Shown: one piece after another, positions 20,978-24,581 of the stretch
Layout: each line of letters starts with the position of its first letter
Numbering within the stretch: position 1 is the stretch's first letter
From: Bacteroidia bacterium
Lineage (GTDB): Bacteria > Bacteroidota > Bacteroidia > M30B66
Length of the DNA: 38,139 bases
Assembly (NCBI GenBank): GCA_019695235.1
Contig: JAIBAI010000029.1
Coordinates: 1 to 38,139, forward strand
Reading direction: 5' to 3'
Notes under the pieces: generated by a model
What the model was told of the DNA's origin: nothing
The model's database searches: none
Seen by the model: the letters and a program-made list of their open reading frames with translations, nothing else
Position numbers and translations under genes: made by a program

Positions 20978-21010
20978 GCTTGCAAAAATGTGGCTTGTTT
21001 TGCTCCCCCT

Positions 21011-21026
21011 TCCCGCACGTACGGGA
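21011..21026. repeat. Imperfect 16-base palindrome, copy 1
   Basis: TCCCGCACGTACGGGA is palindromic except for one C/A pair (positions 6 and 11 of the element). It occupies the place of the T-arm in the tRNA-Asn remnant and differs by one base from copy 2. Confidence 0.7.
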
Positions 21027-21040
21027 GCCCCTTTGATTAA

Positions 21041-21056
21041 TCCCGTACGTACGGGA
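21041..21056. repeat. Perfect 16-base palindrome, copy 2
   Basis: TCCCGTACGTACGGGA equals its own reverse complement. It sits in place of the anticodon 5' stem in the tRNA-Asn remnant. Two near-identical copies 30 bases apart suggest a REP-like repeat family; I noticed no further copy in the window. Confidence 0.8.
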
Positions 21057-21105
21057 CTATAACCAGCATTCAGTCAGAAAGCAATAACAAGGCTGAAATA
21101 TAAAC

Positions 21106-21133
21106 AAACAAGCCGGCGTAAGCCGGCTTGTTT
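21106..21133 (-). terminator. Intrinsic terminator of tRNA-Asn
   Basis: A perfect 12-bp stem (AAACAAGCCGGC with its complement) closes a 4-base loop, starting 2 bases beyond the tRNA 3' end. On the minus strand it is followed by T-rich sequence (GTTTATATTT). It has a short T-run on the plus side too, so it may also stop transcripts coming from the DUF6340 gene. Confidence 0.8.
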
Positions 21134-21135
21134 TG

Positions 21136-21209
21136 CTCCCCCTCTTGGGCTCGAACCAAGGACCCTTTGATTAACAGTCAAATGCTCTAACCAGCTGAGC
21201 TAAGGAGGA
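21136..21209 (-). tRNA. tRNA-Asn (GTT)
   Basis: The minus strand folds as a complete cloverleaf of 74 bases. The acceptor stem TCCTCCT pairs with AGGGGGA (one T-G pair), the D-arm contains AGCTCAGCTGGTTAGAGC, and the anticodon loop CTGTTAA gives anticodon GTT. The T-arm is CTTGG-TTCGAGC-CCAAG, and G is the discriminator base. The 3' CCA is not encoded (CAA follows the discriminator), so it must be added by the CCA enzyme. It ends 2 bases before a strong terminator and has its own promoter-like sequence upstream. Confidence 0.97.
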
Positions 21210-21305: not shown

Positions 21306-23126
21306 TTAAACAAAGGACTGGAGGTCAAAAAGTCTCTTGTAAGCACCCTGTTTTATGAGCAATTCATGGTGTGTTCCACGTTCTACAATCTCACCATCCT
21401 GCATCACTAAAATCAGGTCAGCATGCTGGATAGTGGTCAGGCGATGTGCGATGATTAAGGCAGTACGCTGCACCATTAGCCGCGAAAGGGCATCCTGGAC
21501 CAATCTTTCACTTTCAGTGTCTAAAGCTGAGGTGGCTTCATCAAGTATCAAAATGGGCGGATTGGCCAAAACTGCCCGGGCTATGCTAAGACGCTGCCGC
21601 TGGCCTCCTGATAGCTTATGCCCTCGATCGCCTATATTGGTCTGGTAAGCATCCGGCATTTCTATGATGAAATCATGCGCATTGGCAATTTGAGCCGCAT
21701 GTTGAACTTCCTCTAATGTAGCACCAGGCTTCCCAAGAGCGATATTGTTAAAAATACTGTCGTTAAAAAGAACACTTTCCTGACTGACAATCCCCATGAG
21801 CCGACGCAGGCTGTCGAGCTGCAAAGCACGTATATCATGCCCGTCAATCAAAATACGCCCATTACTCACATCATAAAACCGGGGTAGTAAATCAGCAAGC
21901 GTTGATTTCCCTGAACCCGACTGGCCCACAAGAGCAATGGTCTTCCCTTTGCTAAGCGTAAAATTAATGTCTTTTAAAACCGGCTCTTGATGGTAGCTAA
22001 AATCAACGTGCTCATAGCGCAACTCCTGCTCAAACAGATCAAGAGAGATGGCATCTGTGGCGTTCTGTATACGGTTTTCGGCATTTAATATCTGGTCAAC
22101 ACGCTCCATCGAAGCACGTCCTTTTTGAAGATTGTAATAAGCTTGAGAAATGGCTTTTACAGGCGGCAGAATCTGCGAAAACACCAAAATAAATGTCATA
22201 AAAATTTCCGGACTCAATGCATTATTACCGCTTAAAACAGCTCTGCCACCAAAGAGCATAATGGCAACAATCACCATCGAACCCATGAGTTCACTTAGTG
22301 GTGATGCCAAATCTTTCTTACGGTAAATACGGTTCATCAGCCGTTTTAAAGCATAATTGGTGTGCCTGAAACGCTCTCTGCTTAAAGGTTCTGCATTAAA
22401 TGCCTTGAGAATCCGCAATCCGCCAAGGGTCTCCTCAGTCAGCGACATAAGCTCTCCGGTTCTTTTCATGCCCTCCTCTGATGAACGCCGCAAGCTTTTT
22501 CCTATCCGCCCGATGATTATTCCGGCAACAGGTATAAGTACCATTGAAAACAATGTTAACTCCGGGCTCATAAAAAATAAGGTGAGCACGTACACCAGCA
22601 CCGTAGGCGGATCGCGAAAAATCATTTCAATGGCTCCGATAACCGACCATTCAATCTCCTGCACATCATTTGTCATCCGGGTCATGATATCTCCTTTTCT
22701 TTCATTGGTGTAATATGAAAGCGGAAGGGCCAACACCTTGTCGTACAGTGCGTTGCGTATATCCATGATGACCCCGTTGCGCACAGGGGCTAAAAAATAC
22801 ATTGCCAGGTACCGAAAAAGATTTTTTAGTAAAAACATCAATACTACCATGCCGCAAAGCCAGAGCAGTGCAGCCTCCTTTCCGGTACTTTCAATGATGC
22901 CGGTAACTTTATATGCAAAATAGTGTTGAAACCATCCGGCACTGAAATGAAAGGCCGGAAGAGAATGAACCTTTTCTTGTGTTTCAAATAGCAAGCCCAA
23001 AAAAGGAATCGCCAGTGTAAGCGTAAACAGCCCGAAGACAATACCGAGCAAGTTAAATCCGATATTTAGCCCTACATATTTGGCGTAAGGGCGCACATAC
23101 CGAAAGGGTCCACGTAGCAGATTCAT
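21306..23126 (-). CDS. MsbA-like ABC transporter, fused permease and ATPase
   Basis: The 606-residue half-transporter has an N-terminal six-helix exporter domain (first helix near LNIGFNLLGIVFGLFTLTLAIPF) and a C-terminal ATPase: GQSGSGKST, Q-loop IVSQESVLF, signature LSGGQRQRLSIARAVL, Walker B ILILDEATSALD and switch IAHRLTT. The overall type is the lipid A/multidrug exporter group (MsbA/LmrA), working as a homodimer in the inner membrane; flipping of lipid A core is likely but not proven. The frame is open to 23180 with ATGs at 23180, 23144 and 23126. The box TACCTTTG on the minus strand (23134-23141) lies between the last two, so initiation at 23126 (MNLLRGPFRYV) fits best and matches the usual family N-terminus. 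Confidence 0.92.
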   Translation of the reverse strand: MNLLRGPFRYVRPYAKYVGLNIGFNLLGIVFGLFTLTLAIPFLGLLFETQEKVHSLPAFHFSAGWFQHYFAYKVTGIIESTGKEAALLWLCGMVVLMFLLKNLFRYLAMYFLAPVRNGVIMDIRNALYDKVLALPLSYYTNERKGDIMTRMTNDVQEIEWSVIGAIEMIFRDPPTVLVYVLTLFFMSPELTLFSMVLIPVAGIIIGRIGKSLRRSSEEGMKRTGELMSLTEETLGGLRILKAFNAEPLSRERFRHTNYALKRLMNRIYRKKDLASPLSELMGSMVIVAIMLFGGRAVLSGNNALSPEIFMTFILVFSQILPPVKAISQAYYNLQKGRASMERVDQILNAENRIQNATDAISLDLFEQELRYEHVDFSYHQEPVLKDINFTLSKGKTIALVGQSGSGKSTLADLLPRFYDVSNGRILIDGHDIRALQLDSLRRLMGIVSQESVLFNDSIFNNIALGKPGATLEEVQHAAQIANAHDFIIEMPDAYQTNIGDRGHKLSGGQRQRLSIARAVLANPPILILDEATSALDTESERLVQDALSRLMVQRTALIIAHRLTTIQHADLILVMQDGEIVERGTHHELLIKQGAYKRLFDLQSFV

Positions 23127-23133
23127 CAGCCTC

Positions 23134-23141
23134 CAAAGGTA
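23134..23141 (-). promoter_or_regulatory. -7 promoter box that decides the ABC exporter start
   Basis: On the minus strand this is TACCTTTG, a perfect TAnnTTTG box, 7 bases before ATG 23126 and downstream of the other two candidate starts. A TTCG 17 bases upstream is a weak -33 candidate. Confidence 0.5.
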
Positions 23142-23247
23142 CATGAATTTCAAGCGCACGAATGGGTGTACACCACACATAGTGCTCCTGTGGCGATTGT
23201 TGGGCTTACTGTATGGGTAAAACTGCCATATTTAACCTAAAAAACGC

Positions 23248-23255
23248 TAATTTTG
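23248..23255 (+). promoter_or_regulatory. -7 promoter box for the E2 gene
   Basis: TAATTTTG matches TAnnTTTG perfectly, 33 bases before the ATG at 23289. The -33 element is not clear. It lies in the 162-base divergent gap between the ABC exporter and E2 genes. Confidence 0.45.
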
Positions 23256-23288
23256 CCGGCTCAAAACATTACCCCGATTCAGATAATT

Positions 23289-24581
23289 ATGGCGAAATTT
23301 GAACTGATTATGCCTAAAATGGGCGAAAGCGTCGCGGAAGCTACTATCATTAAATGGTTGAAAAACCCGGGCGACACCATCGAATTAGACGAAGCTGTGC
23401 TTGAAATTGCCACCGACAAGGTTGACTCTGAAATCCCATCCCCTGTAGCCGGCATCCTTGAAAAACATCTCTTCAATGAAGGCGATACCATTCAGGTAAA
23501 CGGGGTAATTGCAATTATTAATACATCAGGCGAGGCAGCAACTACACCTGCCGCACCTGCGCAACAAGCCATTCAGGCAAAAGAAACACCGCTGGAAGTG
23601 CCGTTTGTGTCGCAGACCCTTGAAGTATCAGCCATCAAATCAGTACCAGGCGGACGCTTTTATTCTCCTTTGGTACGCAGCATGGCAAAGCTTGAACAAA
23701 TTAGCCAGGCAGAACTTGATGCTATTGCAGGCTCCGGAAAAGATGGCAGGCTTACCAAAGATGATATGCTAGCATACCTTGAAACACGTAAAAGTGGTAA
23801 GGCCGTTAAACCCGCGGGCGCAACAAATACCACGCCGGTAAAGCCTCAAGCCCCTGCCGTTTCTGTCTCTGGCGGCGACGAAATCATCGAGATGGACCGC
23901 ATGCGAAAACTGATTGCAGACCACATGGTGATGTCGAAATCTGTAAGTCCGCATGTTACCTCATTTATCGAAGCCGATGTGACTAACATGGTACTATGGC
24001 GCGAAAAAGTGAAAAAAGAGTTCGAGAAAAAAGAAGGTGAAAAAATTACTTTTACCCCCATCATCATTGAAGCGGTTGCAAGAGCTATCCGCGATTTCCC
24101 GATGATTAATATTTCAGTTGATGGTACAAAAATCATCAAAAAGAAAAATATCAATGTAGGTATGGCAACGGCCCTTCCTTCCGGAAACCTGATTGTACCG
24201 GTAATTAAAAACGCCGATACCATGAACCTTGTCGGTTTAAGTAAAGCCGTAAATGACCTTGCAAACCGGGCAAGAAACAATAAACTTAGTCCGGATGAAA
24301 TTGCAGGAGGAACCTTCACAATTACCAATGTTGGCTCTTTCGGTAATGTAATGGGCACCCCAATCATAAACCAGCCGCAGGTGGCCATCATGGCCATCGG
24401 GGTTATTAAGAAAAAACCTGCAGTGCTTGAAACACCACAGGGTGATGTGATTGCCATCCGACACATGATGTTCTGCTCTTTATCGTATGACCATCGTGTT
24501 GTAGATGGTTCTCTGGGTGGAAGCTTTCTGCGCAGGGTAGCCGATTACCTTGAAGCATTTGACATAAACCGCCCCATCTGA
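23289..24581 (+). CDS. 2-oxoacid dehydrogenase E2 component (dihydrolipoyl acyltransferase)
   Basis: The 430-residue protein has the full E2 layout. A single N-terminal lipoyl domain has the lipoylated lysine in ATDKVDS (K44). A flexible Ala/Pro-rich linker, a peripheral subunit-binding domain at about 118-155 (SPLVRSMAKLEQI..GRLTKDDMLAYL) and a second linker follow. The catalytic core ends with YDHRVVDGSLGG (catalytic His about 402). It transfers acyl groups from lipoamide to CoA. The family cannot be settled between pyruvate, branched-chain and 2-oxoglutarate complexes from sequence by eye; the single lipoyl domain and core look closest to the branched-chain/pyruvate type of Bacteroidota. 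No E1 or E3 gene is nearby. Start at ATG 23289; in-frame codons back to 23253 lack an ATG. The stop overlaps the next start (TGATG). Confidence 0.92.
   Translation: MAKFELIMPKMGESVAEATIIKWLKNPGDTIELDEAVLEIATDKVDSEIPSPVAGILEKHLFNEGDTIQVNGVIAIINTSGEAATTPAAPAQQAIQAKETPLEVPFVSQTLEVSAIKSVPGGRFYSPLVRSMAKLEQISQAELDAIAGSGKDGRLTKDDMLAYLETRKSGKAVKPAGATNTTPVKPQAPAVSVSGGDEIIEMDRMRKLIADHMVMSKSVSPHVTSFIEADVTNMVLWREKVKKEFEKKEGEKITFTPIIIEAVARAIRDFPMINISVDGTKIIKKKNINVGMATALPSGNLIVPVIKNADTMNLVGLSKAVNDLANRARNNKLSPDEIAGGTFTITNVGSFGNVMGTPIINQPQVAIMAIGVIKKKPAVLETPQGDVIAIRHMMFCSLSYDHRVVDGSLGGSFLRRVADYLEAFDINRPI

Follow-up and report, generated by a model that had tools for sequence, protein, structure and literature searches.

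The altered tRNA-Asn copy in the DNA analysed here is best explained as the relic of a tRNA-linked unit whose small GIY-YIG nuclease gene has been lost, a reading to which we give, on sequence evidence, a probability of roughly 0.7. The window, i.e., the whole stretch of 38,139 nucleotides that was analysed, is one entire contig of a Bacteroidota genome (G000; 2.83 Mb in 116 contigs), and it keeps the order tRNA-Asn, terminator and hairpin-armed copy without the nuclease reading frame. The preliminary description of this DNA overlooked both the link to the GIY-YIG nuclease and the event that created the copy, a duplication of the 3′ part of the tRNA together with its terminator.

Anatomy and setting of the tRNA-Asn copy

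The only tRNA that ARAGORN finds in the window is the intact tRNA-Asn of Table 1, which scores 65.4 bits with the Rfam tRNA model. The copy begins about 70 bases past its 3′ end, on the same strand, and consists of three tRNA-Asn blocks in gene order with two interposed 16-bp palindromes (20992-21067, minus strand). The preliminary description had reported this succession of blocks and palindromes, and it is borne out by the local alignment of the copy to tRNA-Asn, which scores 65.5, whereas no score above 44.5 was reached in 1000 shuffles. None of 100 shuffles of the window contained two palindrome matches with at most three mismatches. Palindrome 1 had been placed at the 5′ stem of the anticodon arm; that stem is indeed removed, but the last base of the D-stem, base 26 and the start of the anticodon loop are removed with it. 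The 5′ acceptor strand is absent from the copy, and a normal cloverleaf is therefore not possible; ARAGORN and Rfam call only the intact tRNA-Asn, and the copy lacks the complete cloverleaf and acceptor pairing of a functional tRNA. Base pairing between the two near-identical palindromes is also possible (fold z-score -4.65). The exact palindromes of the window, including TCCCGTACGTACGGGA, have no further site in this genome, and no GIY-YIG reading frame or remnant is left in the window.

Table 1. Features of the window around the tRNA-Asn copy.
Feature	Coordinates	Strand	Basis
Intact tRNA-Asn (GTT), source of the copy	21135..21209	-	ARAGORN, Rfam
Terminator-like hairpin of tRNA-Asn, AAGCCGGCTTACGCCGGCTT followed by a T-rich stretch	21102..21129	-	sequence
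Copy: D-loop/D-stem block GCTGGTTATAG	21057..21067	-	alignment
Palindrome 1 TCCCGTACGTACGGGA, replaces tRNA positions 26-35	21041..21056	-	alignment, palindrome shuffles
Copy: 3′ part of anticodon loop and 3′ stem TTAATCAAAGGG; GC, then palindrome 2	21029..21040	-	alignment
Palindrome 2 TCCCGTACGTGCGGGA, in place of most of the T-arm	21011..21026	-	alignment, palindrome shuffles
Copy: acceptor 3′ strand and 3′ flank AGGGGGAGCAAAACAAGCC, 19 identical bases into the terminator copy	20992..21010	-	alignment
Beginning of the terminator copy, truncated: AACAAGCC, after which the sequence diverges (ACATTTT)	20985..20999	-	sequence
ABC transporter; synteny anchor, its C-terminus precedes tRNA-Asn in the family	21306..23180	-	protein scan, synteny
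2-oxoacid dehydrogenase E2	23253..24581	+	protein scan, synteny

The ABC transporter gene, tRNA-Asn and the E2 gene are syntenic across the window's family. E2 follows tRNA-Asn in the relatives, while in the window a local rearrangement has inverted the ABC gene and tRNA-Asn relative to E2, which lies beyond the ABC gene. Comparison of syntenic loci had been proposed as a way to see the uninvaded ancestor; the interval from tRNA-Asn to E2 is empty in L309, L310, L313 and L314. The same interval holds a decayed GIY-YIG gene in L308, tandem tRNA 3′ ends and terminator in L306, with CCCCGAGCTTGCCTCGGGG in the T-arm, and another arrangement of this kind, with TCCCGAGCTAGCCTCGGGA, in L307.

At other sites of this genome, copies of tRNA-Val, tRNA-Trp and tRNA-Ser have their D-loops replaced by CCCGATAGCTATCGGG or a closely similar sequence. 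Three 74-bp tandem copies of the tRNA-Val 5′ part, with TCCCGATAGCTATCGGGA in the D-loop, lie at a contig end (L378, G000:C24:41144-41307). Copies of the 5′ parts of tRNA-Trp (L383, G000:C108:14176) and tRNA-Ser (L388, G000:C97:64100), with palindromic D-loops, are found directly upstream of the intact genes, and at the tRNA-Ser locus the 3′ end and terminator are duplicated downstream too. No nuclease was found near these hairpin-armed copies or near those of genome G082, and with no remnant in the window either, the window copy could have formed without a nuclease. One GIY-YIG gene of this genome, with an early frameshift, directly follows tRNA-Asp and its terminator (L260, G000:C58:31557). 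Outside tRNA contexts, a repeat of about 146-163 bp carries CCCCGATAGCTATCGGGG at its ends or inside (L381 and L384, contigs C39 and C111).

The tRNA-linked GIY-YIG unit

The units are composed, in order, of an intact tRNA gene, its terminator, a small GIY-YIG reading frame and a copy of the same tRNA with its terminator, in which a TCC(C)G..C(G)GGA hairpin takes the place of at least one arm. Reading frames that end inside tRNA-Asn copies encode a GIY-YIG protein (Pfam PF01541) of about 95-105 amino acids, with little beyond the catalytic domain. In tRNA-Asn units, the tail of the nuclease, LAQLVRVPHVRD followed by the stop codon, is encoded by the copy itself, LAQLVR corresponding to the tRNA D-arm and VPxxRD-stop to the palindrome plus TTAA. 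In tRNA-Phe units, GTTC[GATCC]CTGG becomes GTTC[TCCCGAAGCCTCGGGA]CTGG, and the terminator is likewise duplicated.

A first search for the nuclease, performed with a seven-sequence alignment in 395 genomes (E<=1e-18), returned 16 genes in 13 genomes. All 14 genes that do not lie at a contig start adjoin a tRNA gene (Asn, Phe or Asp), and most of the 16 reading frames are followed by a partial tRNA 3′ copy with one arm replaced by a palindrome. In a wider search, with a twelve-sequence alignment, 120 of 325 genomes of Bacteroidia proved to contain the clade. Ninety loci (30 + 60) were then sampled in E-value order, from related genomes whose kinship is ignored in the counts. An upstream tRNA on the same strand is present at 27 of the 30 loci first sampled; among the further 60, a tRNA lies within 300 nt in 43, and a significant tRNA copy follows the reading frame in 35 of these 43. 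Over the whole sample, a tRNA is found within about 300 nt upstream at 70 of the 90 loci, with at least 12 isotypes represented (e.g., Asn, Met, Val, Leu, Arg, Pro, Ala, Ser, Asp, Phe, Lys, Gly, Thr and His), and copies of the tRNA and terminator downstream of the reading frame occur far above shuffles. When a tRNA anywhere at the locus is counted, the figures are 80/90 for GIY-YIG loci and 0/20 for control transposase loci. Units also occur in tandem: genome G493 has 14 GIY-YIG matches (L335, G493:C9), several of which are arranged behind tRNA-Asn as a 379-bp tandem, and tandem copies are found in G166, G270 and G340 as well. At another locus (L347, G309:C12), a row of tRNA-Asp and tRNA-Gly genes, many about 100 bp apart, lies upstream of a GIY-YIG unit.

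The predicted structure of the nuclease has a mean pLDDT of 88. UPF0213 and Slx1 are the nearest solved structures both by sequence search and by fold, and the related plant enzyme HIGLE is also among the nearest, with weak fold matches (best E 0.012). Slx1 and UPF0213 are structure-specific enzymes, and a fold of this kind would fit, without proving it, an action on branched or hairpin DNA. To our knowledge, UPF0213 and Slx1 are not tRNA-linked, unlike the Bacteroidota nuclease. A phage or plasmid origin of the nuclease was considered and rejected, as the phage search (50,697 records) and the plasmid search gave no match. In the open-access literature, we found no report of GIY-YIG genes beside bacterial tRNA genes, no paper on the tail LAQLVRVPHVRD and no relevant paper on the palindrome. 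Provisionally, therefore, the arrangement of tRNA, GIY-YIG gene and hairpin-armed copy, which is common in Bacteroidota, appears not to have been described before.

Hairpins in place of tRNA arms

The preliminary description had suggested a search of sister genomes for tRNA fragments joined to the palindrome; the junction TTAGAG-[TCCCG N6 CGGGA]-TTAATC is found again in the tRNA-Asn copies of numerous other Bacteroidota. A contig scan for TCCCGTANNTACGGGA retrieves tRNA-Asn copies with a palindrome at the same place, often with a second one in the T-arm. The pattern GATTAATCCCGNNNNNNCGGGA, searched in 395 genomes of the phylum, has 14 matches outside the window's own genome, 10 of which are tRNA-Asn copies, and its reversed control has none. 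The inner six bases are free in this pattern, yet they are self-complementary or nearly so in the tRNA copies. In Cognataquiflexum rubidum (L105:2981-3228), truncated hairpin-armed tRNA-Asn copies form a 77-bp tandem array.

An automatic scan, from which natural arms were removed, identified 120 arm replacements in 85 loci. The replaced intervals lie nearer the arm apices than random ones (3.3-3.6 versus 4.9-5.0 nt; 0/5000), which upholds the earlier proposal of arm replacement rather than random decay. The 90 loci fetched by the nuclease alone contain 81 hairpin replacements in 56 loci, located in the anticodon arm (56), the T-arm (15), the D-arm (6) or the variable region (4); they comprise 72 distinct palindromes, all of which carry CCG..CGG. 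Where loci were retrieved without use of the palindrome, the slot between the D-arm and TTAATCA of tRNA-Asn is occupied either by the natural ten bases (5 variants) or by a TCCCG..CGGGA-type hairpin (19 variants, some with one mismatch), and by nothing else. Among sixteen 16-base versions, that of the window included, 98% of cells are paired, and covariation scores 0.323 against 0.077 after shuffling (0/500); their inner pairs alternate among C-G, A-U and U-A, and the signal is lost when the partner is slid by 1-3 bases. This covariation shows the inserts to be hairpins, as had been supposed. Hairpin-armed copies at L397, L345, L343 and L340 are called tRNA-Lys, -Glu or -Phe by ARAGORN because the new loop resembles another anticodon, which constitutes an annotation hazard.

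An alternative that we consider possible, though unlikely, is that REP-like dispersed palindromes prefer DNA hairpin loops and are tolerated in duplicated tRNA ends, that their link to GIY-YIG genes is indirect, and that the duplication in the window was hit twice. CCGATAGCTATCGG indeed has 804 copies, spread over 99 of 325 genomes, whereas its reversed control has 4, so that a genome-wide palindrome family exists; it reaches 65 copies per genome and also occurs outside tRNA contexts. The D-loop replacements without a nuclease in the window's own genome point the same way, as do the second palindromes, which occupy differing T-arm positions in different lineages. Against this, the number of exact TCCCGYANNTRCGGGA palindromes away from tRNA/GIY loci is close to that expected by chance (53 against about 25 in the control, with 13 of the 53 located at such loci), and the occupation of one slot by many covarying hairpins argues for maintenance at fixed sites, not random arrival. 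Genomes bearing CCGATAGCTATCGG are, moreover, enriched for GIY units (57 of 120 GIY-clade genomes versus 42 of 206 others; p=5e-7, kinship ignored). A genome-wide mobile repeat of TCCCGTANNTACGGGA was rejected, since outside tRNA/GIY loci this sequence is near chance and often represents ordinary terminators. An exchange of this kind is also seen outside tRNA: a dispersed repeat (GTCATCC..GAAAAT..ATTATTTGGGGATCT), compared between L005 and L007 (both G039), has a small hairpin in one copy where the other carries TCCCGTACGTACGGGA.

It is improbable that REP elements were moved into the tRNA duplicate by a RAYT (REP-associated tyrosine transposase). All 35 palindrome-rich genomes examined have the Y1 transposase family, against 30 of 45 palindrome-free ones (p=7e-5), but CCGATAGCTATCGG lies near only 1 of 20 Y1 transposase loci, at a distance of 835 bp, none of these 20 loci holds a tRNA, and no constant GTAG-type tag was seen beside the palindromes. 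Still less credible is the remnant of an att site left at tRNA-Asn by a tyrosine-integrase island, with palindromes added later. Such sites typically show a direct repeat of the tRNA 3′ end and flank, as is seen here; yet no integrase is found among the scanned proteins of the window, the corresponding interval in relatives holds a GIY-YIG gene or nothing and no integrase, and we know of no att repeats that include palindromes inside arms or the D-arm. An assembly artefact or a chance similarity to tRNA-Asn, which the preliminary description had named as grounds for refutation, has a negligible probability: the assembly is of metagenome type and other palindromes do lie at contig ends, but the feature is interior to a 38-kb contig, its alignment score is far above shuffles, and the same arrangement recurs across many unrelated assemblies.

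Possible mechanism and relation to known systems

In the favoured reading of a GIY-YIG unit that lost its gene, the nuclease would break DNA at the tRNA or at its copy, and recombination between tRNA copies would spread the unit or amplify it in tandem, as has been proposed for phage SegB. The hairpin may stop the copy from acting as a tRNA, may protect it from cleavage, or may itself be the structure that the nuclease cleaves. The palindromes themselves may arise by insertion, by exchange or by template switching.

SegB, a free-standing GIY-YIG homing endonuclease found in the tRNA clusters of phages T4 and T6, shares microhomology with tRNA-Tyr at its 3′ end and drives tandem amplification, and a 718-bp tRNA-Tyr/segB repeat has been reported (PMC13096335). 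It is the closest known relative of the Bacteroidota units. As with SegB, the Bacteroidota GIY-YIG gene adjoins a tRNA and its 3′ end shares tRNA sequence; tandem arrays of units occur in some genomes, for which recombination would here be the presumed mechanism. Unlike SegB, they are chromosomal, encode a predicted nuclease of about 95-105 amino acids that is mostly catalytic domain, and copy the whole 3′ part of the tRNA with its terminator, the arms being replaced by hairpins. Measured against SegB, the window has kept the tRNA and the copy, while the GIY-YIG domain is absent (decayed in L308).

REP/RAYT systems and GTAG/CGTC-tagged palindromic repeats are short palindromes dispersed in bacterial genomes (PMC3733652). 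The Bacteroidota palindromes are likewise short and, in the case of CCGATAGCTATCGG, dispersed, but they lie inside the arms of tRNA copies, are tied to GIY-YIG genes and do not flank the transposases checked. Small palindromic repeats of organelles, such as those of Volvox mitochondrial DNA, are regarded as selfish DNA (PMC2670323); in contrast to these, the repeats described here are bacterial, site-specific to tRNA arms and nuclease-linked. A more general and rather doubtful proposal is that a Bacteroidia-wide class of tRNA-anchored amplification might exist, built from a tRNA, a minimal GIY-YIG nuclease and a tRNA copy with covarying hairpins for arms, which the nuclease recognises or avoids. 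Dispersed CCG..CGG palindromes might then be its non-autonomous traces, forming a GIY-YIG counterpart of RAYT-REP.

Altogether, Bacteroidia chromosomes commonly carry a counterpart of the GIY-YIG/tRNA partnership reported from T-even phages, to which a new component is added, namely tRNA copies in which hairpins take the place of arms at preferred positions that depend on the isotype. This accounts for many odd tRNA pseudogenes and mis-called tRNAs, and supplies hypotheses on the function of many small proteins annotated as 'GIY-YIG family'. It also makes testable the idea that such units alter tRNA dosage, e.g., against tRNA-cleaving toxins or defence nucleases.
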